From contig NZ_JARANZ010000010.1 of NCBI RefSeq assembly GCF_029889905.1, forward strand, positions 1 to 64,000: a stretch of DNA of 64,000 bases. Direction: 5' to 3'. The notes beneath the pieces were generated by a model. It did no database searches, had not been told where the DNA came from, and saw only the letters and a list, made by a program, of their open reading frames with translations. Within the stretch, counting starts at the first letter, position 1, and every line of letters starts with the position of its first letter. Shown in pieces: positions 9,013-26,636 of the stretch. The position numbers and the translations under genes are program-made. Origin of the DNA: Chromohalobacter sp. 11-W (GTDB lineage Bacteria > Pseudomonadota > Gammaproteobacteria > Pseudomonadales > Halomonadaceae).

Positions 9013-9132
9013 GGGATGCCTTTCGGTGATGACGCCCGGCATTGGCTGGGCGCCTTCCGCGCGCTACCTCGCCTTGGTTGCAGGTGGTGCGCGAGAGGAC
9101 AAAACGTTGCCGATTTTCTTGAGGGCTGCACT

Positions 9133-11675: not shown

Positions 11676-11792
11676 TGTTCAACGCATGCTGGTACTCGGG
11701 CTCGGCCAGGCATTCAAGCTTATTTACACGGCATGTGGCGCCAGCCCGTATGAGTTCAGGCGCGTCAGTACTCCCGTAAGTTGAGGCGAACG

Positions 11793-12782
11793 ATGAAACT
11801 ATTGATACCCACCGAAGGTTCATACGGTTACAAGGTCATGTGTTTGGTACTGGCCGGCATCTATGCTTGGTTCTTGATGGGTTTGGATGTCGACGGCTAT
11901 GTCGATCGCGCTAATTATCTCATCTATGCCCAGTATTCCGACGAGATATTTGTAAAGTATGCTGCTGGTAGTCTCAAGACGGTTCTCACTAACGAACCGG
12001 TATGGTTGCTTTACAATATATGGGCATCAAAGCATTTTACTCCGGAAGATACACTGCGGGTAATCATATTTTTTTCGTCTTTTTTCGTATCATTTTTGGT
12101 GTTGAGGAGTTATCCAAAGTACGCTTTGTTGCTGGTGCTTTTTATTCTCATGCCGCAGGTCTTGAAGAATAATATAGTCCACCTGCGACAGGGCGTGGGG
12201 ATTACGCTTTTCTTTATCGGCTGGTGGTGTCGTTACTTGCCGCTACGCATGTTTTTCATCGGGCTGGCACCATTGGTGCATGCATCCTTTTTCTTCATTG
12301 ATGCTTTGTTTCTACTCAATATTGCTTTCTCGACGTTCAGGATTTCGACCATCTGGCGGATGATATATACCCTGGGTATGGGCGTCCTGCTAGGGGCTTT
12401 AGGAATCTGGCTTGCAGATGCATTGGGGGCGAGGCAAGGCTCGAGCGCGGAATATAACGCCATGGGCTCGGAAGGGTCGGGGCTGGCGTTTATCTTCTGG
12501 GGCGTGTTCGCCGTGATCTTCTCCATGGAAGGCAAGGAGTTTCTCAAAAACAATTTCTTTCCGGCCTCTATCCTAGTCTTCTACTTGTCGACCTATTTTC
12601 TACTCCCGGTCACAGCACGTGTATTTGAAAGCGGCATGTTGATAGTACTTCTGGCGTCCTTAGGGTTGAGTGACTGGCGACGTTACGCAGCCTATTCATT
12701 ATACATCTTTTACTTTTGCATGCAGTGGTATGAGGCTTTTGGCCTGCCAGGTTATGGGTGGGCTGTCGAAAGTGCAGTTTAA
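11793..12782 (+). CDS. EpsG-like membrane protein, candidate polysaccharide polymerase (Wzy)
   Basis: 329 residues with about nine or ten hydrophobic segments. The stretch NNIVHLRQGVGITLFFIGWW matches the conserved Arg-Gln containing segment of the EpsG family, whose members act as Wzy-type polymerases joining repeat units in the periplasm. No other polymerase candidate exists in the operon, which supports the role. The ATG at 11793 follows GAGGCG; a TTG at 11781 is possible. The gene is visibly richer in A+T than its neighbours, as is common for polymerases, which vary between strains. The 117-base gap before it (11676-11792) holds no clear gene. Confidence 0.75.
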   Translation: MKLLIPTEGSYGYKVMCLVLAGIYAWFLMGLDVDGYVDRANYLIYAQYSDEIFVKYAAGSLKTVLTNEPVWLLYNIWASKHFTPEDTLRVIIFFSSFFVSFLVLRSYPKYALLLVLFILMPQVLKNNIVHLRQGVGITLFFIGWWCRYLPLRMFFIGLAPLVHASFFFIDALFLLNIAFSTFRISTIWRMIYTLGMGVLLGALGIWLADALGARQGSSAEYNAMGSEGSGLAFIFWGVFAVIFSMEGKEFLKNNFFPASILVFYLSTYFLLPVTARVFESGMLIVLLASLGLSDWRRYAAYSLYIFYFCMQWYEAFGLPGYGWAVESAV

Positions 12783-12838
12783 GTTTTTATGGCCACGATG
12801 ATTATACGGCAGGTTTTTATATTTCAGGGAGAGGTGAG

Positions 12839-13801
12839 ATGCAGCGTAATATTCCGTTGGATATTTTGAAGTTGATACTGGCCGTCATCGTAGTGATTAC
12901 ACATGCAGGGGTATTGTTGGGGTATAGCGAATTGGGCTATCAGTTGACGGTGCGGGGGCTCTTTCGCATCGTAGTACCGATCTTCATGATCGTCAGCGGT
13001 TATTTCTTCATTAGTGTGGTCCGCTACGGGTCGCTTGCTAGCTGGCTGAAAAAAGTAGTATCGATGTATCTCTTCTGGATGCTGGTATATGTGTTTTTTT
13101 GGCTGGATATCCCAGAGATTACAGCATATGAGATTCTGAGAATGCTGCGCGTGATGATCATGGGCTACCACCATCTGTGGTTTCTTTCCGCACTTATTGG
13201 GGCCGCCATCCTGCTGTACATGCTGCGTAACCTTTCCCTAAAAGCCCTATTGGGACTGGCATTGACACTCTATGGCATGGGGTTGTTCATCATTTATACC
13301 GGTCATTATCACTTGTTCGCCGGCACGCCATTGGATGTGCTCTTCAACGAGGTCTGGTTTTACCGCAACTTCCTGTTTTTCGGCTTCCCTTTCTTTTGTA
13401 CCGGCTATCTGCTGCGTCACTGGGAAGGTTTTCGCCAATGGGATCGACGTTATTACATGCTGTGGAGCCTAGTCGGTGCGCTGCTGCTGCTGGGGGAGTC
13501 GTACCTTAATTATCTGGGACTCAACGGCCAACGGGGGTTCGACATGTACTTGAGCCTGTTGATCGTTTGTCCGGGCCTGTTCCTTTGGGTCTCGTCGATG
13601 CAGGTGCCCGGTGACAGTACGACCGTGGCGTATTACGCGACGGCGCTGTATTTCATCCATCCGCTTTTCATCTCGCTGTTCGAGGCATTTTCGTATCGGC
13701 AGGGCAACACACTGGCGCTATTGGCGCTCGTGTCGTCGCTACTGGCTGTGGCGTTGCTCAAGGGAAGTCGCAGGCGTTTGCGGTTTGCGTTCGGTGGATG
13801 A
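12839..13801 (+). CDS. Acyltransferase family 3 membrane protein (O-acyl decoration)
   Basis: 320 residues with about ten membrane segments. The N-terminal part has the conserved His in VITHAG and the arginine-containing VRGLFRIVVPIFMIVSGYFF, typical of the acyltransferase-3 (OafA/WecH-like) family. These proteins move acetyl or other acyl groups across the membrane onto sugars, so O-acetylation of the repeat unit is likely. The ATG at 12839 is preceded by GGGAGAGGTGAG. A longer in-frame start overlapping the previous gene (12758) has no conserved sequence. Confidence 0.82.
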   Translation: MQRNIPLDILKLILAVIVVITHAGVLLGYSELGYQLTVRGLFRIVVPIFMIVSGYFFISVVRYGSLASWLKKVVSMYLFWMLVYVFFWLDIPEITAYEILRMLRVMIMGYHHLWFLSALIGAAILLYMLRNLSLKALLGLALTLYGMGLFIIYTGHYHLFAGTPLDVLFNEVWFYRNFLFFGFPFFCTGYLLRHWEGFRQWDRRYYMLWSLVGALLLLGESYLNYLGLNGQRGFDMYLSLLIVCPGLFLWVSSMQVPGDSTTVAYYATALYFIHPLFISLFEAFSYRQGNTLALLALVSSLLAVALLKGSRRRLRFAFGG

Positions 13802-13894
13802 GGAGCCACCGGGCCGCTGACGTTTATTCAAGGTCATGTCCACCGATGCTTGGTCGTCACCACGCGTTGGCCAATCGAAAGGATGTAATCGCTT

Positions 13895-15043
13895 ATGCTA
13901 CCCAAACCATTGAATGTCCTACATATCATTACCGGCTTGACCGATGGAGGTGCAGAGAATTCGCTGTACCAGCTTTGCCATAACGATCGTCATAACATGC
14001 ATCGCGTGGTGAGTTTGATGGACGCTGGGCAATACGGCCCGCGGCTCGAGGCAGCGGGGATCGAGGTCGTGTATCTGCATATGCCGCCTGGCCGTGTGAC
14101 GCTGGGGGGGCTGTGGCGCTTGTGGCGGACCATCCGCACGTTTCGGCCGGACGTGGTGCAGACATGGATGTACCACGCTGACCTGGTAGGCGGTGTCATG
14201 GCAAGGCTGGCGGGAGTCAAGGCCATCTGCTGGGGAGTGCGTAACAGCAACTTGATGCCTGGGGTCACCAAACGCAGCACGATCTGGGTGGCCAAGGCGT
14301 GCGGAGTCTTGTCTAGCGTAGTGCCGAGCAGCATCGTGAGCTGTTCGCAGAACGCAGTAGAGGTACATCGAAAGCTGCGTTATGCGGGCATGAAGTTTGT
14401 GGTCGTGCCGAATGGGTGCAATTTATCGCTGCTAATGCCAGACCCCGAGGCTAGGGCGCACGTGCGTGCGGAGTGGGGGCTAGACGACGCCATGCCTCTG
14501 ATTGGCATGGTGGCGCGATTCGACCCGCAGAAGGACCATGCCAATCTGATCGCTGCCTTGGCGCAACTCAAAGGCCTTGGGTGGAACTTCCACTGCGCGC
14601 TGATCGGTGCCGAAATGGATGCCAACAATCTCGAGTTGACCGAGTTGTTGGAAGATCATGGCGTGCGCGACCGGGTGCTGCTGGTCGGGCGGCGCAGCGA
14701 TATCCCGGCAGTGATGAACGCGCTCGATATTCATGTGCTGTCGTCGCGCTTCGGTGAAGCTTTCCCAAATGTGCTGTCCGAGGCGATGGCCTGCGGTACG
14801 CCGTGTGTATCCACCGATGTCGGTGATGCGGCCTTCATTGTTGGTGATACGGGCTGGATCGTCCCACACAGTGATCCTAGAGCCTTGGCGGATCATCTGG
14901 CTTTGGCGCTCGACGAGTACGCGGATGCGCCAGCATGGCAGGCGCGTAAGCAGCGTGCGCATCAACGTGTCGTCGATTCCTTTAGCGTGCAACGCATGAT
15001 CGACGGCTATAACACTTCCTGGCATCAGGCATGTCTCGCATGA
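13895..15043 (+). CDS. Glycosyltransferase family 4
   Basis: 382 residues with a GT-B architecture. The N-terminal LHIITGLTDGGAENSLYQL is the typical acceptor-side opening of GT4 proteins of the EPS type. The C-terminal half holds MVARFDPQKDHANLI and SSRFGEAFPNVLSEAMACGTP with the conserved glutamates. It is expected to add a sugar to the lipid-linked repeat unit from the cytoplasm. The stop overlaps the following deacetylase gene by 13 bases. Donor specificity is unknown. Confidence 0.88.
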   Translation: MLPKPLNVLHIITGLTDGGAENSLYQLCHNDRHNMHRVVSLMDAGQYGPRLEAAGIEVVYLHMPPGRVTLGGLWRLWRTIRTFRPDVVQTWMYHADLVGGVMARLAGVKAICWGVRNSNLMPGVTKRSTIWVAKACGVLSSVVPSSIVSCSQNAVEVHRKLRYAGMKFVVVPNGCNLSLLMPDPEARAHVRAEWGLDDAMPLIGMVARFDPQKDHANLIAALAQLKGLGWNFHCALIGAEMDANNLELTELLEDHGVRDRVLLVGRRSDIPAVMNALDIHVLSSRFGEAFPNVLSEAMACGTPCVSTDVGDAAFIVGDTGWIVPHSDPRALADHLALALDEYADAPAWQARKQRAHQRVVDSFSVQRMIDGYNTSWHQACLA

Positions 15044-16074
15044 ATGCTAACTGGATGACTCAATTGGCGCGCGCCGAGGGTGAGCCGCTGCGTCCGTCGG
15101 CTTTTGTGATCTCCCTGGATTTCGAATTGCACTGGGGTATGTCGGATATCGTGACTACGCCCGAGCACCCATATGTGCGTCGTTTGCTCGGCGCGCGGCG
15201 TGCGGTACCGGCGATGCTGGATCTTTTTCGCGAGCGCCATATTCGTGCGACCTGGGCCACGGTGGGCTATCTGTTTGCTGAGGACCGCGAGACGCTGACG
15301 CGCTTCTCTCCTGTGCGGCGCCCGCGCTATTCCAACCCGGCGCGTGATAATTATCGGCTGGAGATCGGTGACGATGAGGCCAACGATCCTCTGCATTACG
15401 CTCGTTCGCTGGTCGATCTGATCGCGCAGACGCCGGGCCAAGAGATCGCCTCGCATACCTTTTCTCATTACTACTGTCATGAAGAAGGTCAGACGCCGGC
15501 GGACTTTAAGGCCGATCTTGAGGCAGCTATGGCTATTGCCAAGCATACCGGACACCAACCTGGTTCATTGGTCTTGCCGCGTAATCAGACCGATGAGGCC
15601 TATTTGGCACCGATGCGCGAGGCGGGCTTTCGTTGCTATCGCGGCAATCCACGACGTGCGGGGTTTCAGCGTCAGTTTTACGATGCTGCGCCTACGCGTG
15701 CACTGCGGCTGCTGGATAGCTACGTCAACCTGACCGGGCACCACGGCATCAAATGGCGTGATCTCAAGGGCGACCCGCTGAATATTCCGGCCAGCATGTT
15801 CTTGCGTCCACGCCGTTGGCTGCCGCAGTTGGATGCGTTGCGTATACGGCGCATCAAGAAAGCGATGCGCCGTGCTGCCAAGCGCGGAGAGATATTCCAC
15901 CTGTGGTGGCACCCGCATAACTTCGGTGGCGATACTGATGCTAATCTGCGCGACCTTGCCGTCATCATCGGCTATTTCCAGGTTCTTTCTGTCGAATATG
16001 GCATGCGCTCGATGTCGATGCACGATGTGCTGGTACGGCATGAGCAGGTCACGACAGCCCCCTCGACGACCTAG
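15031..16074 (+). CDS. NodB-type polysaccharide deacetylase
   Basis: 347 residues. The NodB fold motifs are present: SLDFELHWG (motif 1, catalytic/metal Asp, about residue 30), EIASHTFSHYY with the metal-binding His-X3-His (about 140), and HLWWHPHNF near the C-terminus. No signal peptide or membrane segment is evident, so it is predicted to be cytoplasmic and may act on an N-acetyl sugar in the lipid-linked precursor rather than on the finished polymer. It overlaps the preceding GT4 gene by 13 bases. Related proteins occur in EPS loci as O-antigen/EPS modification enzymes, though some members are hydrolases of other bonds. Confidence 0.82.
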   Translation: MSRMNANWMTQLARAEGEPLRPSAFVISLDFELHWGMSDIVTTPEHPYVRRLLGARRAVPAMLDLFRERHIRATWATVGYLFAEDRETLTRFSPVRRPRYSNPARDNYRLEIGDDEANDPLHYARSLVDLIAQTPGQEIASHTFSHYYCHEEGQTPADFKADLEAAMAIAKHTGHQPGSLVLPRNQTDEAYLAPMREAGFRCYRGNPRRAGFQRQFYDAAPTRALRLLDSYVNLTGHHGIKWRDLKGDPLNIPASMFLRPRRWLPQLDALRIRRIKKAMRRAAKRGEIFHLWWHPHNFGGDTDANLRDLAVIIGYFQVLSVEYGMRSMSMHDVLVRHEQVTTAPSTT

Positions 16075-16242
16075 TCCCTAGGCGCCCGCCGTACACACGG
16101 CCTGCGCCTTCACAACGATTAACCATTGCCAACGCGCTTTAGTGCGATGGCCAGGGGCCTTTTGTCTTTACGAACAGGTCTTCACGAACGCGTCTTCGAA
16201 ACGTGCCTAACAAACGATCTCCACTGTAGAGGAGTTGTTTCC

Positions 16243-17388
16243 ATGAACGATAAAACGATTGTGCTGGTTTCCAACACGTCTTGGTCTCTCTACAACTTCT
16301 GCCAGGGGTTTTTGAGGGCGCTAGAGAGACGCGGCTTTCGTGTGGTGTGTTTGGTGCCCGATGACGACTATTCGCAACGTTTGCTCGATGAATTCGACGT
16401 CACCCTTCACAGCATGCCCATGGACGGCAAGAGCACTTCTCCTACGCGGGAGGGAAAGTGTCTGTTCTGGTTGTATGGGCAGTTGCGCGAGCTGCGGCCC
16501 GCCTTTGTTTTCAACTTCACGATCAAGGCCAATCTCTATGCGGGATTAGCGTGCCGCGCCCTGAGAATTCCGTATGCCAACACCATCACCGGACTTGGGA
16601 CGGCTTTCCTGCATGACAGCCACTTGTTTCGCCAAGTGCGACGGCTTTATGGCTTCGCCAATGCCGGGGCGAGGCGGGTGTTTTTCCTCAATCCGGATGA
16701 CAGAGAGGTCTTCGAGCGCCAAGGCATGTTGCAAAAAGTCGACTGGGGGATGTTGCCGGGCGCGGGGGTTGATGTAACGCGCTTTGCATTCACGCCGTTG
16801 CCCCTGGATGGGCCCTTCACCTTTGTTTTGATCGCACGGCTACTAGGCGACAAGGGCGTGCGCGAGTACACCGCGGCGGCCGAGCAAGTGCGTTTGGACA
16901 ATCCCGAGACGCGTTTTTTGATCGTTGGGCCCAAGGGCGTCAGCAATCGCACGGCGATCGAGGACGACGAGATTGAAGCTTGGCGCGAGCGGGGTGTCGT
17001 CGAATACGTCGGTGCTCAGGACGATGTGCGGCCCTGGCTTGCCCAATCTCATGTGCTGGTGCTGCCGTCCTACCGCGAGGGCTTGCCGACCACCGTATTG
17101 GAGGCGGGCGCGATGGGGCGGCCGACCATCGCCACTGATGTGCCGGGGTGTCGCCATGCCGTGACCGACGGCGAAACCGGTTGGCTGTGTCGCGTCAAGG
17201 ACGTTGAGTCGCTGGCGGCGCGTATGCGCGCGTGTCTGGTGATGACGCCGTGGACGCTTTCCCGCGTGGGCGTGGCGGCACGTCGGCGCGCTGAAAAGGA
17301 ATTCTCGCAGGACATCGTCGTGGCGGGATATCTGGCCTGTCTCGAGGTCGATCTGATGAATCACCAACACATGAAAATGGAGGCGTAA
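16243..17388 (+). CDS. Glycosyltransferase family 4 (PglA-like)
   Basis: 381 residues. The N-terminus has VSNTSWSLYNFCQGFLRAL. The middle carries FNFTIKANLYAGLACR and NTITGLGTAFL, a signature of PglA/WbpX-like GT4 enzymes that act on undecaprenyl-linked disaccharides. The C-terminal domain has ARLLGDKGVREY and LPSYREGLPTTVLEAGAMGRP. The ATG at 16243 is chosen because GAGGAG lies 8 bases upstream. It shares one base with galE (TAATG). A 168-base gap precedes it with no gene recognised. Confidence 0.87.
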   Translation: MNDKTIVLVSNTSWSLYNFCQGFLRALERRGFRVVCLVPDDDYSQRLLDEFDVTLHSMPMDGKSTSPTREGKCLFWLYGQLRELRPAFVFNFTIKANLYAGLACRALRIPYANTITGLGTAFLHDSHLFRQVRRLYGFANAGARRVFFLNPDDREVFERQGMLQKVDWGMLPGAGVDVTRFAFTPLPLDGPFTFVLIARLLGDKGVREYTAAAEQVRLDNPETRFLIVGPKGVSNRTAIEDDEIEAWRERGVVEYVGAQDDVRPWLAQSHVLVLPSYREGLPTTVLEAGAMGRPTIATDVPGCRHAVTDGETGWLCRVKDVESLAARMRACLVMTPWTLSRVGVAARRRAEKEFSQDIVVAGYLACLEVDLMNHQHMKMEA

Positions 17389-18509
17389 TGACGATTTTAG
17401 TGACGGGTGGTGCGGGCTACATCGGTTCACATATGGCGCTGCGGCTCATGGAGGCCGGCCACGACGTGGCCGTGATCGACAACCTCTGTAATGCCTCGCG
17501 TGAGTCGCTGGAGCGCGTCTCACAGTTAACCGGCAAAGAAGTTGTCTTCATCGAGGGCGACATACGCGATCGTTCGCTATTGGATTACGTCTTTGCGGAC
17601 TTCGAGATCAGCGATGTGTTGCACTTTGCTGGGCTCAAATCCGTGGGAGAAAGTGTCAACGAGCCATTGGCGTATTTCGAGAACAATGTAGCGGGAACCA
17701 TCACGCTGTGTCAGGCCATGACGGCGGCGGGGGTCTTCCGTCTGGTGTTCAGTTCTTCGGCGACGGTGTACGGCGATGCCACGCGCATGCCGTTGAGCGA
17801 AAGCGCGCCCACCGGACAGCCGACCAATGCCTACGGACATTCCAAGCTGATGGTCGAAGAGGTGCTACGCAAGCTGGCGCGGTCTGACCCACGCTGGTCG
17901 ATCGCACTGCTGCGCTACTTCAATCCTGTGGGTGCGCATCCCAGCGGGCTCATCGGCGAGGACCCATCGGGCAAGCCCAATAACCTGCTGCCGTTTATCT
18001 CCCAAGTGGCAATCGGGCGACTACCGGCGCTATCGGTCTTCGGCGATGACTATCCGACGCCGGACGGTACCGGCGTGCGCGACTATATCCATGTCATGGA
18101 TCTGGTCGAGGGGCATCTGGCGGCGATGCGCGTATTGACAGACCGTTCAGGGGCGAATGTCTGGAACTTGGGAACCGGTCAGGGGTATTCCGTGCTCGAA
18201 ATGGTGCGCGCTTTCGAGATGATTTCGCAGCGCGATGTGGCGTATCGCATCGTGCCGCGCCGCGATGGGGATATCGCCGAATGCTGGGCCGATGCCTCGC
18301 TGGCAGCAAATGAGTTGGGCTGGAAGGCTCAGCGCGGTCTGACCGAGATGATCACCGATACCTGGCGCTGGCAGTCGAACAATCCCGAAGGCTATCCAAG
18401 CAAACGCGTGGTGAGACGAGACGGTCTCAGTAAACCCGGCGGCATGGCCAACGCCTTGCCGAAGATCTACCTCATTGATACCGCACGCGCCAACCGGGTG
18501 GCCTCGTGA
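17388..18509 (+). CDS. galE: UDP-glucose 4-epimerase
   Basis: Interconverts UDP-glucose and UDP-galactose (or the N-acetyl forms) to supply the glycosyltransferases. The N-terminal NAD-binding motif is TGGAGYIGSH, the catalytic region is SSSATVYGD, and YGHSK provides the Tyr-X3-Lys pair near residue 149. FNPVGAHPSG and GTGQGYSVLEMV are typical for GalE. At 373 residues it is about 35 residues longer than usual: after WQSNNPEGYP comes an extra basic, low-complexity tail. The gene is coupled to the GT4 gene upstream by a one-base overlap. Confidence 0.93.
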   Translation: MTILVTGGAGYIGSHMALRLMEAGHDVAVIDNLCNASRESLERVSQLTGKEVVFIEGDIRDRSLLDYVFADFEISDVLHFAGLKSVGESVNEPLAYFENNVAGTITLCQAMTAAGVFRLVFSSSATVYGDATRMPLSESAPTGQPTNAYGHSKLMVEEVLRKLARSDPRWSIALLRYFNPVGAHPSGLIGEDPSGKPNNLLPFISQVAIGRLPALSVFGDDYPTPDGTGVRDYIHVMDLVEGHLAAMRVLTDRSGANVWNLGTGQGYSVLEMVRAFEMISQRDVAYRIVPRRDGDIAECWADASLAANELGWKAQRGLTEMITDTWRWQSNNPEGYPSKRVVRRDGLSKPGGMANALPKIYLIDTARANRVAS

Positions 18510-18596
18510 CAATCCGACAAGTGAAAGAGGGGCGCGGCCACGCCGCCGCGCTCTAATACCTGGTAATTGTCAATTTCAGTACCAAGGGGGCGTCCC

Positions 18597-20372
18597 ATGT
18601 CCAAGGTTTTATATGCTTGTAGTCGAAACTCTAGTTTCAGTTCTAGTACAAAGGAAAAGTTAAATAGAATTTGTAACCAGCTTGTCCCAGACAATATCGA
18701 TGTCCCGAAACCTCATATAGTACGTGTCGAAGATGACTTGGCATATGCTGTATGCATGGATAGTGGTGCCCTCCAAGAGTCGGGAGGGAGCTTGCTTCTG
18801 GGGTTTCTGTATGAAAAAAACAAAGTGAGTTGGGATAAGCCTAAAACATGCTATCCAGATGGTAATTATGCCTTGTTTAGGGTCGATGAGGCTGAACTTG
18901 AAGTGGTAAGCGATTGTGTTGGGACTAGAACGGTCTGGTATTACCATAATGAAGAGATTTTTATTGCATCAACATCGCAACGCGCAATAGTCATGTTTCT
19001 TGGGACATTTGAGTTTGATGAAAGAGTGATCCCGTGGATGCTGTCGACAGGCTCGCTGGGCCCCCAGTTTTCTTGGGATAAAAGAATTAAGCGCCTGCCG
19101 GTCGATAGTTCATTATCGTTGGACAAGAAGTCATGGCTTGTCTCTATTACCCAAGCTCCCATTGATTTTTCTGTGGTTGATCGTGAGACGGAAGACCATA
19201 AGAAATTATTGGCTGATTCGATCGGCCAAGCTTCAGAGTCTCTTGAGAGAATCGATTTTGAGCGATGGGTGTTACCGTTATCCGGAGGCTATGATAGTCG
19301 AGGAATTTTGTTGTTTATAAAGAAAACTATAGGGGCTCCAGATAACCTGAAGGCGATAACATGGGGCTTAGAGAAGTCGCAGTATGAAAAAGGCAATGAT
19401 GCCTATGTGGCTAAGGAGTTAGCTCGCTCCGTGGGGGTTCAGCATAAATACTACCATACAGATATTTCTCCCGAGCCGCTCGAGGTGATTTTCGATCGAT
19501 TCCTTTTTTGCAGTGAAGGTCGTGTTGATCATATTGCTGGGTACATGGATGGTATGGATATCTGGAAACAACTCCATGATGAGGGTGTAAATGGGGTCAT
19601 CAGAGGTGATGAGGGTTTTGGAGAGTTCCCCGTTTCATCAGAACTGACCGTGAGAGCAACAGTCGGTTGTGGTCTATGTTCCGATTACAAAAACTTATCG
19701 CAAGTGATCAATGAGTTTGGATTCCCTCCTCAAGAAATGCCAATTGAATTACGCCAAAAAGAGGGGGAGACATTTGATGCATGGGTTGATCGGCTCCACC
19801 AGCAATATCGTATTCCCACCGTTCTTGCGGCCCTGTCTGATATCAAGTTCTCGTATTTAGAGCAAATCAACCCCCTGCTTTCCAGGTCAGTACTTGATGC
19901 CGTTAGAAGCTTGCCCGACGATCTTAGGATGGATAAGTATCTGTTGAAGAACATCGTTGAAACTATGGAGCCGAGTATTCCATTTGCCGTTAAAATCGCA
20001 AATGGTAATCCTGAAAACATTCTTCGAGAGAAAGCGTGTGTCGACCTTATGAAGTCAGAAATTAGTAGCGATTATTCAGTTGGTCTGTTCGGCTCCAGGT
20101 TTATAGAGAGAGTTGTTGGTGAAGTTAAGGTTGACGATAACGAGTCGAGGAAGCGGAGCAGGAGCATAAAAGGGCTAGTAAGCTCGTTTTTGCCTATCGC
20201 AATAAAGAATCGACTGCGTGATACAGTAGCTCGCCCAACAGTCGATGGTAACGTTCTCGCGTTTAGAGTCTTGATGATTATAAAAATGCATAAAATGCTA
20301 ACGCTAGACGCTTATAGAGTGGCCAGATCACAACAGTATCCGATGGGCGAGGTTCGTGCTGCTGCTAGTTAA
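18597..20372 (+). CDS. Asparagine-synthetase-like ATP-dependent amidotransferase lacking the glutaminase cysteine
   Basis: 591 residues. The C-terminal part carries the PP-loop SGGYDS (about residue 228) and GDEGFGEF, both diagnostic of the asparagine synthetase B synthetase domain, which adenylates a carboxylate with ATP. The N-terminal part looks like a divergent glutaminase-fold domain, but the protein begins MSKVLYA, so the catalytic Cys2 of class II amidotransferases is missing. It may use free ammonia or a partner. In surface-polymer loci such proteins (WbpS-like) are proposed to amidate uronic acids, a reasonable hypothesis here. Codon use and composition are clearly more A+T-rich than galE or the following genes, suggesting separate acquisition. 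The start is supported by AAGGGGGCG before 18597. Confidence 0.75.
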   Translation: MSKVLYACSRNSSFSSSTKEKLNRICNQLVPDNIDVPKPHIVRVEDDLAYAVCMDSGALQESGGSLLLGFLYEKNKVSWDKPKTCYPDGNYALFRVDEAELEVVSDCVGTRTVWYYHNEEIFIASTSQRAIVMFLGTFEFDERVIPWMLSTGSLGPQFSWDKRIKRLPVDSSLSLDKKSWLVSITQAPIDFSVVDRETEDHKKLLADSIGQASESLERIDFERWVLPLSGGYDSRGILLFIKKTIGAPDNLKAITWGLEKSQYEKGNDAYVAKELARSVGVQHKYYHTDISPEPLEVIFDRFLFCSEGRVDHIAGYMDGMDIWKQLHDEGVNGVIRGDEGFGEFPVSSELTVRATVGCGLCSDYKNLSQVINEFGFPPQEMPIELRQKEGETFDAWVDRLHQQYRIPTVLAALSDIKFSYLEQINPLLSRSVLDAVRSLPDDLRMDKYLLKNIVETMEPSIPFAVKIANGNPENILREKACVDLMKSEISSDYSVGLFGSRFIERVVGEVKVDDNESRKRSRSIKGLVSSFLPIAIKNRLRDTVARPTVDGNVLAFRVLMIIKMHKMLTLDAYRVARSQQYPMGEVRAAAS

Positions 20373-20558
20373 AGGCTAGTTGGGGTCTGGGTTGAGGCTT
20401 CTCTTATTAATATTCCGGGGTGAGGTGAGATATTTCATAGAACTCCGGCGAATTTAGTTTCACATAATGATAACGAGGCTATTGTGAGCGGATTTCTAGA
20501 GGTTCGCGGTCGATTAAATAAGATAGCAAGTCAATGTCTCGGCGCGGGGATTTTATAT

Positions 20559-21431
20559 ATGCGTTCGGTCATAAGGCTGATGAGGCCACACCAGTATCTC
20601 AAGAATGGTTTTGTGCTGGTTGGGCCGTTATTTGCTCATCAGTGGGATCTGCTTACTCTCTCTCAAGCGCTGTTGGCCTTTCTGGCCTTCTGCTGCATGG
20701 CGAGTGCGGTGTATGTACTCAACGACATCATGGACATCGAGGCGGATCGAGCCCACCCGGTGAAATGTCGTCGTCCCTTGCCGAGTGGTGCCATTTCCAC
20801 GCGTATGGCCAAACGACTGCTTGTTGGGCTGATAGCCGCATCGATGATGCTGGCACTGCTGGTTAGCGGCTGGGTCGCTCTGTTTGTGGCAACCTACTTT
20901 GTCATCAACATCTTTTACTCTTGGCGCCTCAAGCACATCGTGATCCTCGATGTATTCTTGATCTCGTCCGGTTTCATGCTGCGGATTCTGGCTGGCACGG
21001 TGGGGTTAGGCATCGCGCCATCCGCGTGGCTGCTGCTGTGCGGTTTGATGGTCACGCTGTTTCTGGGCTTCTCCAAGCGACGCGCCGAACTACTGATGCT
21101 TGAGAGTAACGAGCACTGCAACGGAGGGCTGACCCGACGTGTATTAGATGACTATAGCCCGGCCATGCTCGAGCAGTTCATCGCTGTCACGGCTGCATGC
21201 ACGGTGCTTGCCTACGGCCTCTATACTGTGTCCCCGAAGACGATCGCCCTACATGGCAGTGATGGATTGATCTACACCTTACCCTTCGTGGTGTATGGCA
21301 TCTTTCGTTATCTTTACCTGCTGCATCAAAAGTCCAAAGGCAATGATACGGCCAAAGACCTGGTTATCGACCGCCATCTGTTGGCCACGGTCGTGGGCTG
21401 GGTGGGGTCGACTCTGTGGGTCCTAACATGA
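20559..21431 (+). CDS. UbiA-family prenyltransferase, decaprenyl-phosphate phosphoribosyltransferase-like
   Basis: 290 residues with about nine membrane segments. The sequence opens with MRPHQYLKNGFVLVGPLFAH and has the metal/diphosphate motif NDIMDIEADRAHPVK (about 56-70), with the HPVKCRRPLPSG continuation characteristic of the phosphoribosyltransferase branch (Rv3806c-like). That enzyme moves 5-phosphoribose from PRPP to polyprenyl phosphate. The next five genes supply the rest of the polyprenyl-phospho-arabinose pathway, which makes this branch far more likely than ubiquinone or haem synthesis. The ATG at 20559 is chosen; a GTG at 20484 would add 25 residues. The stop overlaps the next gene by four bases. 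Confidence 0.85.
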   Translation: MRSVIRLMRPHQYLKNGFVLVGPLFAHQWDLLTLSQALLAFLAFCCMASAVYVLNDIMDIEADRAHPVKCRRPLPSGAISTRMAKRLLVGLIAASMMLALLVSGWVALFVATYFVINIFYSWRLKHIVILDVFLISSGFMLRILAGTVGLGIAPSAWLLLCGLMVTLFLGFSKRRAELLMLESNEHCNGGLTRRVLDDYSPAMLEQFIAVTAACTVLAYGLYTVSPKTIALHGSDGLIYTLPFVVYGIFRYLYLLHQKSKGNDTAKDLVIDRHLLATVVGWVGSTLWVLT

Positions 21432-22399
21432 CGGCGGCAGTGAGTTATCTGGAAGGGTGGCGGCTGCGGGCGCTGATCCTCTCCATCGTGGCCGCCACCG
21501 CCGGCTATTTGGCGTTTTCCCTGTGGGGAGGCTGGAATGAGGTAGTAGCCGCCTTCGTGCAGATTGGCTTGGTAGGCACGCTGATCGCCCTGCTCTTGTC
21601 GCTGATGAACTACGCCCTGCGGTTCTGTCGCTGGCAGCTCTACTTGTCGCAGCTGGGGCATCGCGTAGCCTGGTCGCCGAGTCTGCGAATCTATCTCAGT
21701 GGCTTTGCCCTGACCACCACGCCCGGTAAGGCGGGGGAGGCTTTCAGGGGCGTACTCCTCAAGCAGCGCGGGGTACCGTTCCCGGTGACCTTCGCTGCCT
21801 TCATCAGCGAGCGACTTTCCGACCTCGTTGCCATCGTGCTGCTCACACTGGTGGGGCTGGCCCAATACCCCCAGGCGCGGAGCATTGTGCTTGCCGGGGT
21901 ACTGGGGATCGTGGTGGTGCTGGCTTGCCTGTCGAGCAAGACCCTGCTGGACCGGCTGCATCGTTGGGCCTCGGCTCGCCAGGGCAAGCTGATGGCCTTG
22001 GTGACCCATGTCAGCGAGATGCTGGGGGGCGCGCGCCGCTGCCATCGCCCCGGCCTTCTAGGCATAGCCACCGTGATCAGCGTGATCGCTTGGGGGGCGG
22101 AGGCACTGGCTTTCTATTGGATGCTGGGCTGGCTCGATGCCGACATCTCGCTTTCGTTCGCCATCTTCGTTTATGCGCTGTCGATGCTGGCCGGCGCCCT
22201 GAGTTTCCTACCGGGCGGTCTGGGGAGCGCTGAAGCGGTGATGGTCTCGCTGCTGGTCCTCAAGGGCATGGCGATGCCCGCCGCCATCGCGGCGACCGTA
22301 TTCATTCGCCTGGCAACGCTGTGGTTTGCCGTACTAATCGGCCTGGTGGCCTTGATCCGCAGCCGTCATGGTGAAGCGCCTGCGGAGGAGACCGCATGA
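21428..22399 (+). CDS. Lysylphosphatidylglycerol-synthase-TM-like integral membrane protein
   Basis: 323 residues with about eight membrane segments, of the LPG_synthase_TM/UPF0104 family. Conserved-looking segments are LRFCRWQLYL, GFALTTTPGKAGEAFRGVLL and SFLPGGLGSAEAVMV. Family members include flippase-like proteins and proteins of unknown role found in glycan loci. Its position between the UbiA and DprE1-like genes, with 4-base overlaps on both sides, suggests a role in handling or flipping the polyprenyl-phospho-pentose. That is inference; no catalytic residues are known for this subgroup. Confidence 0.78.
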   Translation: MTAAVSYLEGWRLRALILSIVAATAGYLAFSLWGGWNEVVAAFVQIGLVGTLIALLLSLMNYALRFCRWQLYLSQLGHRVAWSPSLRIYLSGFALTTTPGKAGEAFRGVLLKQRGVPFPVTFAAFISERLSDLVAIVLLTLVGLAQYPQARSIVLAGVLGIVVVLACLSSKTLLDRLHRWASARQGKLMALVTHVSEMLGGARRCHRPGLLGIATVISVIAWGAEALAFYWMLGWLDADISLSFAIFVYALSMLAGALSFLPGGLGSAEAVMVSLLVLKGMAMPAAIAATVFIRLATLWFAVLIGLVALIRSRHGEAPAEETA

Positions 22400-23697
22400 C
22401 CGCCCCACGTTCATGGAACCGTCTGCCGCGTGTGGCTCCCGACGCCGTCCATGCGTTAACCCAACGCTACGCTGGCGTGCCGGATGGTTTGCCAAGGCCA
22501 TTACTGGCCCATGGTAATGGGCGTAGCTATGGCGATGTGTGCCTGACCGAACAGGGCACGCTGCTGCTTACCCGAGGGCTCGACCGCTTTATCGAATTTG
22601 ACCCGCAGCAGGGGATACTGCGCTGTGAGGCAGGCGTCACCCTAGCCGAGCTCCTCGCACTGGTGGTGCCCCAAGGCTGGTTCTTGCCCAGCACGCCGGG
22701 GACGCGCTTGGCCACGGTAGGTGGTGCCGTGGCCAACGACGTGCATGGCAAGAACCACCATGCCGTAGGCAGCTTCGGCCACCACGTGCGCGCCCTGGAG
22801 CTGTGGCGCAGCGATGGCAGCATTATCGCGTGCCGGCCCGAGGACGACAACGGCTGGTTTTCGGCAACTATCGGCGGGCTGGGCCTGACTGGGCTGATTC
22901 GCTGGGTCGAGCTGCAGCTGATGCCTATCCAGAACCCCTGGATGTGGGTCGAGTCGCAGCGCTTCGCCAATCTCGACGAGTTTTGGGCACTCAACCGTCG
23001 TGCTGAGGCCCGCTGGCCCTATACCGTGGCCTGGATCGACTGCTTGGCCAAAGGTAAGGCGCAGGGCCGGGGGATATTGCTGGCCGGCCAGCATGCGGCG
23101 GCACAGGCCGAGCTGCCGGCGTTCAAGGAAGGCGGCAAGCGGATCCCCGTCGATCCACCATTCTCGTTGGTCAATGGGCTGAGCCTGCGCGCCTTCAATA
23201 CCCTTTATTACCGGCAGCCAGTCAAGCCCCAGGGGGCGCTGACTCATTATGTGCCGTACTTCTACCCGCTGGATGCCATTCAAGGTTGGAACCGCATTTA
23301 TGGGCGGCGTGGTTTCTACCAGTACCAGTGCGTGATTCCGCCCCGCGAGGCCGAGGCTGCTACCGCGGCGCTGCTCGATACCATCGCCAGGCGCGGGGAG
23401 GGGTCGTTTCTTGCCGTGCTCAAGACCTTCGGGAACAAGCCCTCGCTGGGCATGCTGTCGTTTCCGCGCCCCGGCACCACTCTGGCCCTAGACTTTCCCG
23501 ACCGGGGCGACAAGACCCTGCGCCTTCTCGAGGAGTTGGATGCCATCGTGCGCGAGGCCGGTGGCACCCTCTACCCCGGCAAGGACGCCCGTATGCCGGC
23601 GAGCTTGTTTCAGGCTGGCTATCCCCAATGGGAAGCCTTCAGCGCTTACGTCGACCCCGGCTTTTCTTCCCGTTTCTGGCAGCGAGTGACCCCATGA
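22396..23697 (+). CDS. dprE1: DprE1-like FAD oxidase (decaprenylphospho-ribose 2'-oxidase)
   Basis: 433 residues. The FAD-binding region has AHGNGRSYGDVCL, STPGTRLATVGGAVANDVHG and KNHHAVGSFGHHVRAL, which closely follow mycobacterial DprE1 and distinguish it from generic FAD_binding_4 oxidases. The C-terminal part has LSFPRPGTTLALDFPDRG and YPGKDARMP, with the catalytic lysine of the family. DprE1 oxidises the C2' hydroxyl of polyprenyl-phospho-ribose to a keto intermediate that DprE2 then reduces. The cysteine trapped by benzothiazinones in mycobacteria aligns here with an alanine (LALDFP). The start overlaps the preceding gene and the stop overlaps the following dprE2-like gene (ATGA in both cases). 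Confidence 0.87.
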   Translation: MTAPRSWNRLPRVAPDAVHALTQRYAGVPDGLPRPLLAHGNGRSYGDVCLTEQGTLLLTRGLDRFIEFDPQQGILRCEAGVTLAELLALVVPQGWFLPSTPGTRLATVGGAVANDVHGKNHHAVGSFGHHVRALELWRSDGSIIACRPEDDNGWFSATIGGLGLTGLIRWVELQLMPIQNPWMWVESQRFANLDEFWALNRRAEARWPYTVAWIDCLAKGKAQGRGILLAGQHAAAQAELPAFKEGGKRIPVDPPFSLVNGLSLRAFNTLYYRQPVKPQGALTHYVPYFYPLDAIQGWNRIYGRRGFYQYQCVIPPREAEAATAALLDTIARRGEGSFLAVLKTFGNKPSLGMLSFPRPGTTLALDFPDRGDKTLRLLEELDAIVREAGGTLYPGKDARMPASLFQAGYPQWEAFSAYVDPGFSSRFWQRVTP

Positions 23698-24449
23698 ACT
23701 CTCTCAATCGTGTGATCCTCTTCGGGGCGACGTCCGCCATTGCCGAGCAGACCGCCCGGCAACTGGTTGCCCAGGGCGCCTCCCTCTACTGCGTGGGACG
23801 CAACCGCGACAAGCTGATGGCGCTTATTGATGATCTCAAGGTAAGGGCCAGCGACCACCAGCAAATCGATGGGGATGTGGCCGATCTGACCGACAGCGAT
23901 CAGCATGCTCGGCTTATTGACGCTGGTGAACGAGCGCTGGGCGGCATCGATGGCGCGCTGATTGCCCACGGCACTCTGCCGAACCAGCAGGCCTGCCAGG
24001 CGGATGTTACCCAGACACGCCAGGAGATCGAAACCAACGCCCTGAGCGTGATCAGTCTGCTGACCCTGCTGGCCAACCGCCTCGAGCAGCAGCAGTACGG
24101 TGTGATCGCCGTGATCAGCTCGGTAGCCGGCGAGCGGGGGCGGCAGAGCAACTATGTCTATGGCGCCGCCAAGGGCATGGTCACGTTGTTTCTCCAGGGC
24201 CTACGCAACCGGCTGGCCAAGAGCAATGTCGACGTGGTGACCATCAAGCCCGGTTTCGTCGATACCCCTATGACCGCCGAGCTCGATAAGGGTGGGCCGC
24301 TGTGGGCCAAGCCCGAACAGATCGCCAAGGGCATCATCAAGGCCATGCAGAAGGGCAAGGGCGAAGTGTACCTGCCATGGTTCTGGTGGGGCATCATGCT
24401 GATCATCAAGCATATCCCTGAAGCTATCTTCAAACGGATGTCGTTATGA
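23694..24449 (+). CDS. dprE2: DprE2-like short-chain reductase (decaprenylphospho-2-keto-arabinose reductase)
   Basis: 251 residues. The Rossmann motif is unusual for SDRs but matches DprE2: ILFGATSAIAEQTARQL. The active site has VISSVAGERGRQSNYVYGAAKG, with Ser, Tyr and Lys of the SDR triad. The C-terminus includes IKPGFVDTPMTAEL and a hydrophobic membrane-associating tail, WWGIMLIIKHIPEAIF. With the DprE1-like oxidase it would complete 2'-epimerisation of polyprenyl-phospho-ribose to the arabinose form. The true start is the ATG at 23694, overlapping the dprE1 stop; the same frame is open well upstream inside dprE1. Confidence 0.86.
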   Translation: MNSLNRVILFGATSAIAEQTARQLVAQGASLYCVGRNRDKLMALIDDLKVRASDHQQIDGDVADLTDSDQHARLIDAGERALGGIDGALIAHGTLPNQQACQADVTQTRQEIETNALSVISLLTLLANRLEQQQYGVIAVISSVAGERGRQSNYVYGAAKGMVTLFLQGLRNRLAKSNVDVVTIKPGFVDTPMTAELDKGGPLWAKPEQIAKGIIKAMQKGKGEVYLPWFWWGIMLIIKHIPEAIFKRMSL

Positions 24450-25084
24450 ATCAGTTTCCTGAGTTCGATGCTCGTCCCGTCGCGTTTTTTGACTTCGATG
24501 GAACCTTGACGACCGGTGATTCATTGATGCCGTTTCTCAAGTTCGTCGTCGGCACACCGATCTACTACGCCAAGCTTGCACTTCTGAGCCCAGTACTCGG
24601 TGCTTATTATGCGAAGCTACTGCGTAACGACATCGCCAAGCAAATCGTGCTCAAACAGTACTTAGGGGGGTACCACATTGATGAACTCTTTACACTTGGA
24701 GAGCGTTTCAGTGAAGAAGTGATCCCCACCATGCTGCGCCCAGAAGGCATGGAGCGTCTCAGGTGGCACCAGGCCCAAGGCCATGAGTGCGTGCTGGTGA
24801 GTGCTTCGATGAATGTTTACCTGAAGTCTTGGGCTAAGCGAGAGCATTTTTCGGAGGTTATCTGCACAGCGCTAGAAGTTGGCAAGGAGGGCCATGTATC
24901 AGGCAAGTTTCAGGGAAAGAATTGTCATGGTAAGGAAAAGCTGAAGAGGGTGATGAAGTGGCAAGCCAATTGTAGCCCAATAGAAATGTACGCATATGGT
25001 GATACATCTGGAGATATACCAATGTTAACTTATGTTGGGAATGGGTTTATTTTGACACAAAAAACATTCAGAAGGGTTGTTTGA
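24446..25084 (+). CDS. HAD-IB family phosphatase
   Basis: 212 residues. HAD motif I is DFDGTLTTGDS near residue 19, motif II is VLVSASMN, and motif IV is YGDTSGDIPML, as in SerB/GPH-like HAD-IB hydrolases. Polyprenyl-phospho-arabinose synthesis needs removal of the 5-phosphate after the UbiA step. This gene, which overlaps dprE2 by four bases, is the only phosphatase in the cassette and is the natural candidate. Base composition drops toward A+T in its last third (after about 24,850), running into the AT-rich gene that follows. Confidence 0.83.
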   Translation: MNQFPEFDARPVAFFDFDGTLTTGDSLMPFLKFVVGTPIYYAKLALLSPVLGAYYAKLLRNDIAKQIVLKQYLGGYHIDELFTLGERFSEEVIPTMLRPEGMERLRWHQAQGHECVLVSASMNVYLKSWAKREHFSEVICTALEVGKEGHVSGKFQGKNCHGKEKLKRVMKWQANCSPIEMYAYGDTSGDIPMLTYVGNGFILTQKTFRRVV

Positions 25085-25086
25085 TC

Positions 25087-26361
25087 ATGGATAATACTAG
25101 CTACTTGGTTGTGAATCGGGGGGTGAAGCTTTTTCCGTTAGGGGTTTTTTTATCTGTTTTTGTTGTTTGGTTGCTCTTGTATTTATTTCTTGGGGTCCAC
25201 CACAAGCCAGCTGCTGGCGATGAAATTGACTATATCAATCGAGGCATTGAGTTCTTCGAGAATGGGTGGTCTGCGTTTTCAGATGGATGGCGGCCTCCGC
25301 TTTTGCCGTTACTTATAGCATTTTTGAATCTCTTTGTAGATGCGGGGTCCTTGCTTAACTTGGCAAGAATAACAAATATTGCATTTGTTAGCATTGTCCC
25401 AGCCCTGTGGTTTTATGAGTATATGGTAAGTGGTAAAAGAAGAAGTTTTCTTTTAATGGCAATGTTTACTTCGGCTTGGCCAGCATATTATCTCCTTGCG
25501 TTTACTGTATATGCAGAGGCTGCTTCATTTCTTTTTTTGAATATCCTTATTATTCTCACGCTTAGAATGAAAAGCTCGGACAAGTTTCTGGCCCTTTATT
25601 TTATAGGGTTTCCTCTATGCTTGGCGGTGCTCTTCCTTTTTAAAGCAAATAATGTGTTGATATCTGTTCCCTTTGGTCTTTATGTTTTATTTTTTGGGGC
25701 TGGTGGTTTTGTTAAAAGGTTTTTGAGGGTGTCTGTCCTCGCGTTAATTACTGTTGTAATGATTTCTCCATGGTTGGTTTTTTTGAAAAGCGAAATGGGG
25801 GAGTGGGTTGCTACAACAACAGGTGGGTATAACCTCCTCGTGGGGACTGGGTACCATTCATTCGGTATGGCGCCCGACAACGATGCAATACATAGAGAGT
25901 ACTTGCTGAATGCATATGGAGGAGAGTACCCTGGAATCTCTTCTGAAGAGGTCGCTTTAATAAATAGCCAGCCGAGCAAGTATTTGATGGACAAGGTCTC
26001 TAAAGATATTGCTTTTCGTATATGGTCTGAAGATACTAGAAGAATGCTGAATCTTTCTTTTAGGAAGGTAATGCATTCATATGGCATGTCTTTCAGAGGG
26101 ATGGGGGACTTCGTTGTATTTTCTTTGCTCTTGGTCTCTATCGCTGCATCTGTTATGCTTTTATACAAAAATAAGTTTATTAATATAGTCTTTCTTCATT
26201 GGTCAATGGCTTTGGTGGGGTGTGTTGTTTCTTTCTTTTGGTTGCCTAATATAAGGTTCAAGATTTTCTATTTTGACACTACGGCGCTCTACCTTATAGC
26301 ATGCTTGTTATCTGTTATGATTAGTGGTTTTAAGAGCTCTAAGCCTGAATTAAAGAATTAA
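25087..26361 (+). CDS. GT-C fold glycosyltransferase, candidate arabinofuranosyltransferase
   Basis: 424 residues with about 9-11 membrane segments. The first extracytoplasmic loop contains AGDEIDYINRG, an Asp/Glu motif in the place of the catalytic Asp of ArnT/PMT-type GT-C enzymes. It is followed by DGWRPPLLPLLIAFL, also typical. GT-C enzymes use polyprenyl-phospho-sugars as donors in the periplasm, so this is a good candidate to use the lipid-arabinose made by the cassette. It begins two bases after the HAD stop and is very A+T-rich compared with the window. It is the last gene before the operon terminator at 26605. The acceptor is unknown. Confidence 0.72.
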   Translation: MDNTSYLVVNRGVKLFPLGVFLSVFVVWLLLYLFLGVHHKPAAGDEIDYINRGIEFFENGWSAFSDGWRPPLLPLLIAFLNLFVDAGSLLNLARITNIAFVSIVPALWFYEYMVSGKRRSFLLMAMFTSAWPAYYLLAFTVYAEAASFLFLNILIILTLRMKSSDKFLALYFIGFPLCLAVLFLFKANNVLISVPFGLYVLFFGAGGFVKRFLRVSVLALITVVMISPWLVFLKSEMGEWVATTTGGYNLLVGTGYHSFGMAPDNDAIHREYLLNAYGGEYPGISSEEVALINSQPSKYLMDKVSKDIAFRIWSEDTRRMLNLSFRKVMHSYGMSFRGMGDFVVFSLLLVSIAASVMLLYKNKFINIVFLHWSMALVGCVVSFFWLPNIRFKIFYFDTTALYLIACLLSVMISGFKSSKPELKN

Positions 26362-26604
26362 GCGCAGCACTCACAGTGTTCAGTGCTTATGCGTTCGCCA
26401 GTGAACACTTGTGCCGGCATCCGATACCTCGGTCGTTTCCTGGTACGGCTGTTGAGTTTATCCACCAAACGCCAAACTGTAGAGTCCCTTCCCCCCGAAT
26501 GGACTGATGTAGAAGCAGCTCTTGCTGCCAGTCGAGGTTAACTGTCGAGTCTCTACACTCGATTATCTTGGCGGACATCTTACCTTCAACCGTGTCTGCC
26601 CCTG
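26362..26604. other. Intergenic stretch of unknown content after the EPS operon
   Basis: About 240 bases of intermediate composition. A reading frame on the - strand (26387-26677) runs through it and across the terminator, so it is unlikely to be a gene. The region could be a decayed coding or insertion-element remnant, but no terminal repeats or transposase motif was recognised. Confidence 0.3.
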
Positions 26605-26636
26605 ACGCCGGTGCCCTTGTGCACCGGCGTTTTTTT
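26605..26636 (+). terminator. Strong Rho-independent terminator ending the EPS/arabinose operon
   Basis: The perfect 10-bp stem ACGCCGGTGC (26605-26614) with GCACCGGCGT (26621-26630), loop CCTTGT, is followed by seven T residues. From here to the next start at 26795 no other signal was recognised. Confidence 0.9.

Follow-up and report, generated by a model that had tools for sequence, protein, structure and literature searches.

A candidate D-arabinofuranosylation module appended to an exopolysaccharide operon of Chromohalobacter

The first 64,000 nucleotides of contig NZ_JARANZ010000010.1 of Chromohalobacter sp. 11-W (assembly GCF_029889905.1), referred to below as the window, contain six consecutive genes at the end of an exopolysaccharide (EPS) operon. 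These genes encode, in order, a UbiA-family phosphoribosyltransferase, an LPG_synthase_TM (LPG_TM) membrane protein, a DprE1-like oxidase, a DprE2-like reductase, a HAD phosphatase and a polytopic membrane protein of putative GT-C type. We consider it probable that they form a self-contained module for D-arabinofuranosylation, a variant of the three-component pentofuranose systems, that has been added to the 3′ end of the EPS operon. The kinship of UbiA, DprE1 and DprE2, the conservation and order of the module, the exchange of its last gene and the empty sites in sister genomes were computed directly, and the donor pathway to polyprenyl-phospho-D-arabinofuranose (polyprenyl-P-D-Araf) is strongly supported. 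Genomes and loci carry G and L numbers where they have to be told apart.

In the proposed scheme, UbiA would use phosphoribosyl pyrophosphate to make polyprenyl-P-ribose-5-P, from which the HAD protein would remove the 5′-phosphate. The DprE1-like protein would oxidise C2 of the resulting polyprenyl-P-ribose to a 2-keto intermediate, and the DprE2-like protein would reduce the keto group to give polyprenyl-P-D-Araf. The LPG_TM protein, which has an MprF fold, would flip this lipid to the periplasm, and the sixth, GT-C-type protein would place D-Araf on the exopolysaccharide, before or after Wzy polymerisation, in a linkage and anomeric configuration that are for now conjectural. The donor and flippase genes would thus be the constant part of the module and the transferase an exchangeable cartridge that sets the acceptor or the linkage.

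Results

The donor enzymes are relatives of the mycobacterial pathway

The six open reading frames (ORFs) are all open and lie consecutively and tightly packed on the plus strand, with ATGA overlaps at four of the five junctions, just as an earlier note made from the DNA alone had described them. At the fifth junction, where the sixth gene follows the HAD gene, the choice of start codon decides between a TTGA overlap and a 2-base gap. A further in-frame GTG, at 20484, lies upstream of the UbiA start.

The identities of the UbiA, DprE1 and DprE2 steps, also proposed in that note, are well supported: the best matches of all three proteins among solved structures are Mycobacterium tuberculosis enzymes, and their active-site motifs are kept. 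UbiA matches PF01040 (E = 5e-26) and scores 267.6 bits against the decaprenyl-phosphate phosphoribosyltransferase model NF008977, above its cut-off of 234. Its closest solved structure in PDB sequence searches is 8j8j, the M. tuberculosis decaprenylphosphoryl-5-phosphoribose (DPPR) synthase (5.5e-33), and the motifs N55DIMDIEAD (the N-D-x-x-D-x-x-x-D site, at residue 55), YSWRLKH and KRRAEL are intact. By motif rather than by alignment, NDIMDIEAD and KRRAEL match sites mutated in the Citrobacter enzyme (PMC11127046). In a FastTree phylogeny of 75 tips, whose single outgroup is the long-branched ubiquinone-type UbiA paralogue of the same genome, Rv3806c clusters with 35 stand-alone cassette UbiAs (support 0.944), which places the window protein inside the DPPR-synthase clade.

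The DprE1-like protein matches PF01565 (3.6e-20) and the DprE1 model NF053785 (4.3e-102), retains the motifs HGKNHH, QYQ and GKD, and finds the M. tuberculosis DprE1 structures, its best solved relatives, at about 3e-69; its kinship with DprE1 is thus borne out by both profile and PDB searches. The DprE2-like protein matches PF00106 (2.4e-34) and the DprE2 model NF053786 (2.9e-48), carries SSVAGER and Y156xxxK motifs, and has DprE2 (21gq_C, 2.7e-28) as its best PDB match. Its top NCBIfam model is NF005489, an SDR model (306 bits, above cut-off). Since the scores of the two proteins against NF053785 and NF053786 (342.6 and 164.7 bits) fall below the curated equivalog cut-offs of 500 and 250, respectively, we name them DprE1-like and DprE2-like. 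Residue 364 of the DprE1-like protein is an alanine aligned to the benzothiazinone-binding cysteine (Cys387) of M. tuberculosis DprE1.

The module recurs in other genomes

Fourteen other loci, taken from 13 additional family genomes, were compared with the window; in 13 of them the five donor genes stand in identical order, a recurrence that is more than chance. UbiA is interrupted at two of these 13, both from G192 (L029 and L034), each gene being split into two pieces. At the fourteenth locus (G007, L035), a fused HAD-UbiA gene accompanies DprE1 and DprE2, and the nearest LPG_TM gene is about 7 kb away. Overall, UbiA is found in 14 of the 201 family genomes (E of 1e-20 or better).

A wider set was drawn from a genome-wide DprE1 scan by keeping 80 named loci (the best 80 of 530); 54 of these were usable, having at least 3.5 kb before and at least 2.7 kb after DprE1. 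A DprE2 homologue lies within 5 kb of DprE1 at 52 of the 54 loci, an LPG_TM gene does so at 42, and no UbiA was found at two.

The HAD protein is a candidate 5′-phosphatase

The HAD protein matches PF12710 (8.1e-39) and TIGR01490 and carries a DFDGT motif. In the 54-locus set, a separate HAD gene is present at 23 of the 30 loci with stand-alone UbiA vs. none of the 22 with a HAD-UbiA fusion (Fisher's exact test, 8e-9, relatedness ignored); the odd HAD coordinates of L067 and L096 were checked. Furthermore, the N-termini of all three fused proteins scanned belong to PF12710, the family of the window HAD. It should be noted that fused and split UbiAs form largely two clades in the UbiA tree, so that this complementarity counts few events. 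It is the pattern expected if the HAD protein acts on the UbiA product, and the phosphatase role that the earlier note had assumed is thereby firmer: the protein is likely the 5′-phosphatase, with polyprenyl-P-ribose-5-P as its presumed substrate. What speaks against this assignment is that no HAD gene was found at seven stand-alone-UbiA loci, six with LPG_TM and one without it (L052, L055, L056, L063, L066, L071 and L110), and that a crude motif scan of these loci returned no other convincing phosphatase.

The LPG_TM protein has the fold of the MprF flippase domain

The LPG_TM protein matches PF03706 (3.8e-46). By sequence alone it found no PDB chain, and the relation to MprF came from a fold search: a structure model built from 34 sequences (predicted local distance difference test, pLDDT, 89) aligns with six MprF entries at Z 20.1-21.8 over 258-269 residues (MprF residues ~45-350), and the next unrelated row is at Z 5.5. 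Fold and linkage together suggest that the protein is the donor flippase, a role that the earlier note had assigned to it and that the MprF fold and the 42 linked loci make firmer, transport itself being predicted.

The genome encodes two more LPG_TM paralogues, both outside the cassette group in an LPG_TM tree that included the 13 of 31 background loci (L126-L156) that matched the cassette profile, the rest being dropped; tip L124_bg in this tree is the window's own gene. Three cassette-like genes were found independently in a PF03706 scan of 60 genomes. The one in G517 is linked to UbiA, DprE1 and DprE2, whereas for about 9 kb around those in G490 and G496 neither UbiA nor DprE is present. 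We therefore rejected the idea that the clade is exclusive to D-Araf loci, two of the three genes being unlinked.

The G517 locus (L159, 888-10424) encodes fused HAD-UbiA, DprE1 and DprE2, with a GtrA protein and an LPG_TM protein side by side, a 792-aa protein without a Pfam match, and two more genes that are epimerase-like and oxidase-like by eye.

The sixth gene is exchangeable and may encode a GT-C transferase

The sixth protein is a suggestive candidate for a GT-C D-arabinofuranosyltransferase on the basis of one profile comparison and a motif. In hhalign it matches a PMT_2-type set (L046/L063/L071/L067) at E 1.4e-4, with 14 other profiles at E 0.035 or worse, and it carries a GDEIDY...RPP motif at residues 46-73. 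For the GT-C transferase role that the earlier note had proposed this is weak profile evidence, and the role remains a putative one. Several results run counter to it. The hhalign probability is only 53%, and a second PMT_2-like profile (L038/L027), one of those 14, gives E 0.17. There is no Pfam or NCBIfam match at E≤0.01 (one is at chance level, 0.13). An AlphaFold model from two sequences reaches a pLDDT of only 36 and a predicted template modelling score (pTM) of 0.20. In PDB sequence searches, the protein, alone and as a three-sequence profile, found no relative, Emb-type transferases included, two polyketide synthase matches at E 2 being taken as chance. A suspected resemblance of the L030/L033 protein to mycobacterial AftB gained no support from a PDB profile search, which found no relative, and was dropped.

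Relatives of the sixth protein are rare. Counting its own genome in each set, it is found in two of 201 family genomes (E of 0.001 or better), three of 293 order genomes and one of 398 phylum genomes, and in no plasmid record; within the family of G388, a relative occurs in G388 alone (one of 15). At the sixth position, the window and the 13 family loci carry nine groups of proteins without mutual BLAST similarity, two of them short and perhaps fragments. Of 42 non-fused loci in the wider set, 15 have a non-LPG_TM membrane protein directly downstream, and these 15 proteins fall into 11 BLAST groups; five or more crude hydropathy helices defined a membrane protein, and ORFs were picked mechanically, so that some picks are spurious. 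The remaining non-fused loci have none within 600 bases or an ORF of another kind. Three of the sixth genes scanned there score above the PMT_2 (GT-C) cut-off (L038, L046 and L063); any statement that a GT-C protein always takes the sixth place is confined to the family set.

Comparison with C. moromii captures the exchange directly. The two DNAs are 97% identical over 24001-24930, share no identity over 24931-26556 and regain identity at 26557. The exchanged block takes in roughly the final 50 codons of HAD; its G+C content is 0.413 vs. 0.593 for the window, and C. moromii has an unrelated 409-aa membrane-protein gene in place of the sixth gene. The C. moromii type also occurs in G025 and G093, and the window type in C. 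canadensis. The sixth gene is exchanged while the donor genes keep their order across genera, and the breakpoint lies inside the HAD gene. A further count against a transferase at this position is that the C. moromii/G025/G093-type protein had no GT-C support in the profile comparisons. The C. canadensis sixth gene (L023) has one internal stop near its end.

Sister genomes differ at the 3′ end of the EPS operon

In the window, galE is separated from the EPS operon terminator by an 8.1-kb block that comprises an asparagine-synthase-like gene and the six module genes. Among ten genomes of the genus, the module is present in five and missing in five. In three of the latter (G075, G100 and G085), the EPS genes are followed, shortly after galE, by a hairpin matching the window terminator, i.e. 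the site is empty. In G064, two genes come after galE, one asparagine-synthase-like and one formyltransferase-like (PF00551 at 6.6e-4, short of its cut-off), with no D-Araf module, and in G053 the contig ends within 4.1 kb, which leaves the site unreadable. The 3′ end of the operon is a variable add-on site in Chromohalobacter. A phylogeny of the flanking GGDEF gene, for which part of the copies are incomplete, does not unite the module-bearing genomes in one clade. This GGDEF gene occurs a second time in G100, on a different contig (L171); with a filter of 45% identity or 250 residues, the 15 kb ahead of that copy showed no match to the window's EPS genes.

The EPS operon itself is largely conserved among the sister genomes, and some backbone genes (wzx, GT4) differ between the strains compared. 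A second GT4 paralogue stands beside wzy in all four readable module-less operons (L169, L170, L172 and L173) and in none of the five module-bearing ones at that place; in the window it is missing at 11675-11781. This anticorrelation (Fisher's exact test, 0.008, relatedness ignored) looks as if the EPS repeat unit had changed together with the module. Less favourable to such a link are that it rests on nine genomes of one genus and that a further GT4-like gene follows galE in three of the five module-bearing genomes (G041, G001 and G025).

In the operons of these same three genomes (L174-L176), the stretch from Wzc to the first GT4 gene gave no match to the window-type Wzx. G041 has a different Wzx-type protein and another GT4 after galE (L022, 8616-9944), and G001 and G025 have ORFs of similar size there.

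Acceptor, product and flippase: weighing the alternatives

The cassette is joined to a Wzx/Wzy-type EPS operon, as the earlier note had stated; that EPS is the acceptor of D-Araf is our best guess, prompted by the position of the module, its conditional presence and the covarying GT4 gene. The same donor pathway could instead serve an LPS (lipopolysaccharide) O-chain, type IV pilin or another surface protein, which we regard as unlikely. In other genera the module also occurs apart from recognised glycan genes. In L026 it is flanked by an extensin-like gene, beyond which comes a BCCT transporter, and by a peptidyl-arginine deiminase gene; in L031 it lies near an antiporter and an RND pump, and in L030 near an integrase-core gene (the neighbours scanned numbered six for L026 and L031 and two for L030). 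Position is thus no proof of the acceptor; in L027 the module lies beside a Wza gene. In addition, D-Araf on pilin is published for Pseudomonas paraeruginosa (PMC12369383, PMC11841053), and in G388, which holds the closest of the distant relatives of the sixth gene, that relative is on a different contig from the donor genes. The EPS composition given for C. canadensis strain 28 (glucosamine, glucose, rhamnose, xylose and 3.9% of an unknown sugar) includes no arabinose (PMC10780585), another point against EPS, provided that strain 28 carries the module. In favour of EPS over these other acceptors, all four other module-bearing Chromohalobacter genomes likewise have the module bordered by the EPS genes on one side and by the same GGDEF gene on the other, the EPS GT4 gene covaries with it, and the G388 relative adjoins a gene with weak likeness to Wzy (35% over 60 residues).

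Two further alternatives concern earlier steps of the pathway. It is very improbable that the product is D-ribofuranose or another pentofuranose made by a DprE-like pair with a different substrate. The sub-cut-off DprE1 and DprE2 scores fit such a pair and count against D-Araf, and the published systems include ribofuranose without epimerases and xylofuranose with a different one (PMC11127046); set against this are the adjacency of both epimerase halves in the window, the DprE2 homologue within 5 kb of DprE1 at 52 of the 54 loci, the rank of DprE1 and DprE2 as best solved relatives, and the association of DprE1/E2 homologues with Araf-containing glycans (PMC11127046). We also think it unlikely that LPG_TM works elsewhere, e.g. 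in undecaprenyl phosphate recycling or lipid modification, with GtrA or, say, an SMR pair flipping the donor. That view would account for the absence of LPG_TM from eight fused-UbiA and two split loci of the 54 that have the rest of the pathway, which, like the unlinked genes of G490 and G496, tells against a flippase role. It also agrees with the presence of both GtrA and LPG_TM in G517 and with the small transporters named in published systems (PMC11127046), and for GpgF, an LPG_TM relative, flipping is described as predicted rather than proven (PMC12713373). The window module itself has no GtrA or SMR gene, the LPG_TM fold is that of the MprF flippase domain, and the linkage to DprE1 is frequent. 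Moreover, 13 loci without LPG_TM were inspected for membrane proteins, and among ten proteins scanned from six of them (L045, L074, L079, L094, L109 and L115) there was one GtrA (L109) and no SMR match; the rest were an NADH dehydrogenase chain, a DUF218 protein, a weak PMT_2 match and six proteins without a match, including two adjacent small ORFs of L074. LPG_TM as the donor flippase, D-Araf as the sugar and EPS as the acceptor thus remain the readings that we favour.

Discussion

The novelty that the earlier note claimed for this locus was overstated, since the class of systems was described in 2024: Kelly et al. (PMC11127046) reported three-component pentofuranose systems, with DprE1/E2 homologues in those that contain Araf, and D-Araf donor genes are also known from pilin glycosylation. 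According to that paper, the Citrobacter youngae O1/O2 systems share with the window a UbiA-type polyprenyl phosphoribose synthase, a HAD phosphatase, an epimerase step, a flippase (in the window a candidate) and a GT-C protein (in the window a putative one). They differ in that HAD is fused to UbiA, whereas here it is separate; that the flippase is a small four-helix MATE/SMR-type transporter (ORF14), in contrast to the PF03706 MprF-like candidate; that the transferase is a GT136 protein with a carbohydrate-binding module (ORF12), whereas here the candidate is GT-C-like in one hhalign profile comparison and not in that with a second PMT_2-like set; and that the product is an ABC-exported O antigen, whereas the window module lies in a Wzx/Wzy-type EPS operon (PMC11127046). 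In P. paraeruginosa PA7/Pa5196 (TfpW), D-Araf donor genes and a GT-C protein also occur in a gammaproteobacterial host, but there D-Araf goes to pilin, and the transferase is encoded next to pilA, apart from the donor genes (PMC12369383, PMC11841053). The gpgSDF operon of P. aeruginosa likewise ends in a COG0392/LPG_TM predicted glycolipid flippase, the lipid there being glucosaminyl phosphatidylglycerol and flipping being, as described, unproven in that case too (PMC12713373).

In the mycobacterial decaprenyl-P-arabinose pathway (Rv3806c, Rv3807c, DprE1, DprE2, Emb/Aft), the proposed flippase Rv3789 is SMR-like (PMC11127046), unlike the window candidate. The phosphoribosyltransferase, oxidase and reductase of that pathway are homologous to those of the window; its phosphatase is unrelated to the window HAD, and no Emb-type transferase was detected in PDB searches with the window's sixth protein. 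Gtr (GtrA/GtrB/Gtr-type) O-antigen seroconversion systems are portable. They also combine genes for a donor synthase and a flippase with a type-specific GT-C (PMC11127046), but their donor, undecaprenyl-P-glucose or -galactose, is made by GtrB, and the window module has no gene of that type.

Among the matches listed for open-access titles and abstracts, none joined LPG_TM/COG0392 to pentofuranose donors and none reported D-Araf in Chromohalobacter or Halomonas EPS. What appears new in the open-access literature is the MprF-fold flippase candidate, the pattern of separate vs. fused phosphatases over a set of this size, an exchangeable sixth gene whose breakpoint falls within HAD, and the sister EPS operons in which the site is empty. 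We tentatively propose, as something that falls slightly short of being probable, that the cassette-clade MprF-fold (COG0392) proteins are a separate class of polyprenyl-phospho-D-Araf flippases that form a portable kit with UbiA, HAD and DprE1/E2, and that the transferase is swapped by recombination with a breakpoint in the HAD gene, which would diversify EPS and surface glycans in several phyla.

Direct flippase activity for lipid-linked pentofuranoses was unshown in mycobacteria and in published Gram-negative systems as of the account in PMC11127046. With one dominant flippase candidate in a compact halophile module, the flipping of such lipids becomes directly testable. In addition, strains that differ by the whole module or by the transferase (the window strain vs. 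C. moromii) offer natural comparisons of EPS composition, beside which deletions are still needed because wzx and GT4 genes also differ between strains. Finally, the separate, fused and exchanged arrangements help to spot candidate D-Araf glycans in genomes.

The EPS operon and other observations

The features of the window are collected in Table 1. In the EPS operon, the phosphoglycosyltransferase (PGT; PF02397), Wza (PF02563), Wzx (PF13440), three GT4, acyltransferase and deacetylase genes were identified by Pfam, and GalE is supported by Pfam/NCBIfam profiles. Wzc (at 6814) was assigned from sequence and position alone, as was the Wzy candidate (at 11781), which has no Pfam match.

Table 1. 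Coordinates of the module and associated features in the window.
Feature	Position	Strand	Support
EPS (Wzx/Wzy-type) operon: PGT, Wza, Wzc, Wzx, three GT4, Wzy candidate, acyltransferase, deacetylase, GalE	3681-18509	+	
Add-on block between galE and operon terminator	18510-26603		comparison with sister genomes
Asparagine-synthase-like protein, first gene of add-on block	18567-20372	+	TIGR01536 9.3e-7; PF00733 barely at cut-off
Six-gene module	20559-26361	+	
UbiA-family polyprenyl-phosphate phosphoribosyltransferase	20559-21431	+	ATG start; NF008977, PDB, motifs
LPG_synthase_TM, MprF-flippase-fold membrane protein, candidate polyprenyl-P-Araf flippase	21428-22399	+	ATG start; PF03706, model, fold match
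DprE1-like FAD oxidase (putative 2′-oxidation of polyprenyl-P-ribose)	22396-23697	+	NF053785, PDB, motifs
DprE2-like SDR reductase (putative keto to arabino step)	23694-24449	+	NF053786, PDB, motifs
HAD-IB phosphatase, candidate 5′-phosphatase of polyprenyl-P-ribose-5-P	24446-25084	+	PF12710, TIGR01490, complementarity with fused HAD-UbiA
Polytopic membrane protein, candidate GT-C D-arabinofuranosyltransferase	25081 (TTG) or 25087 (ATG)-26361	+	hhalign, motif
Exchanged block: 3′ end of HAD gene and sixth gene	24931-26556		blastn limits, windowed identity, G+C
Intrinsic terminator of EPS operon	26604-26631	+	11-pair stem, T tail

Divergent ahead of the EPS operon, on the minus strand (1218-3371), lies the gene of a 717-aa protein that appears by eye to be a right-handed beta-helix and has partial or full matches in several sister genomes. 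Relatives of DprE1 occur in 64 plasmid records, 34 of them from Rhizobium. Furthermore, a phage record from human faeces (MT837543.1, 6.6 kb) encodes, at 4877-5746, a nearly full-length homologue of the UbiA phosphoribosyltransferase with 36% identity.

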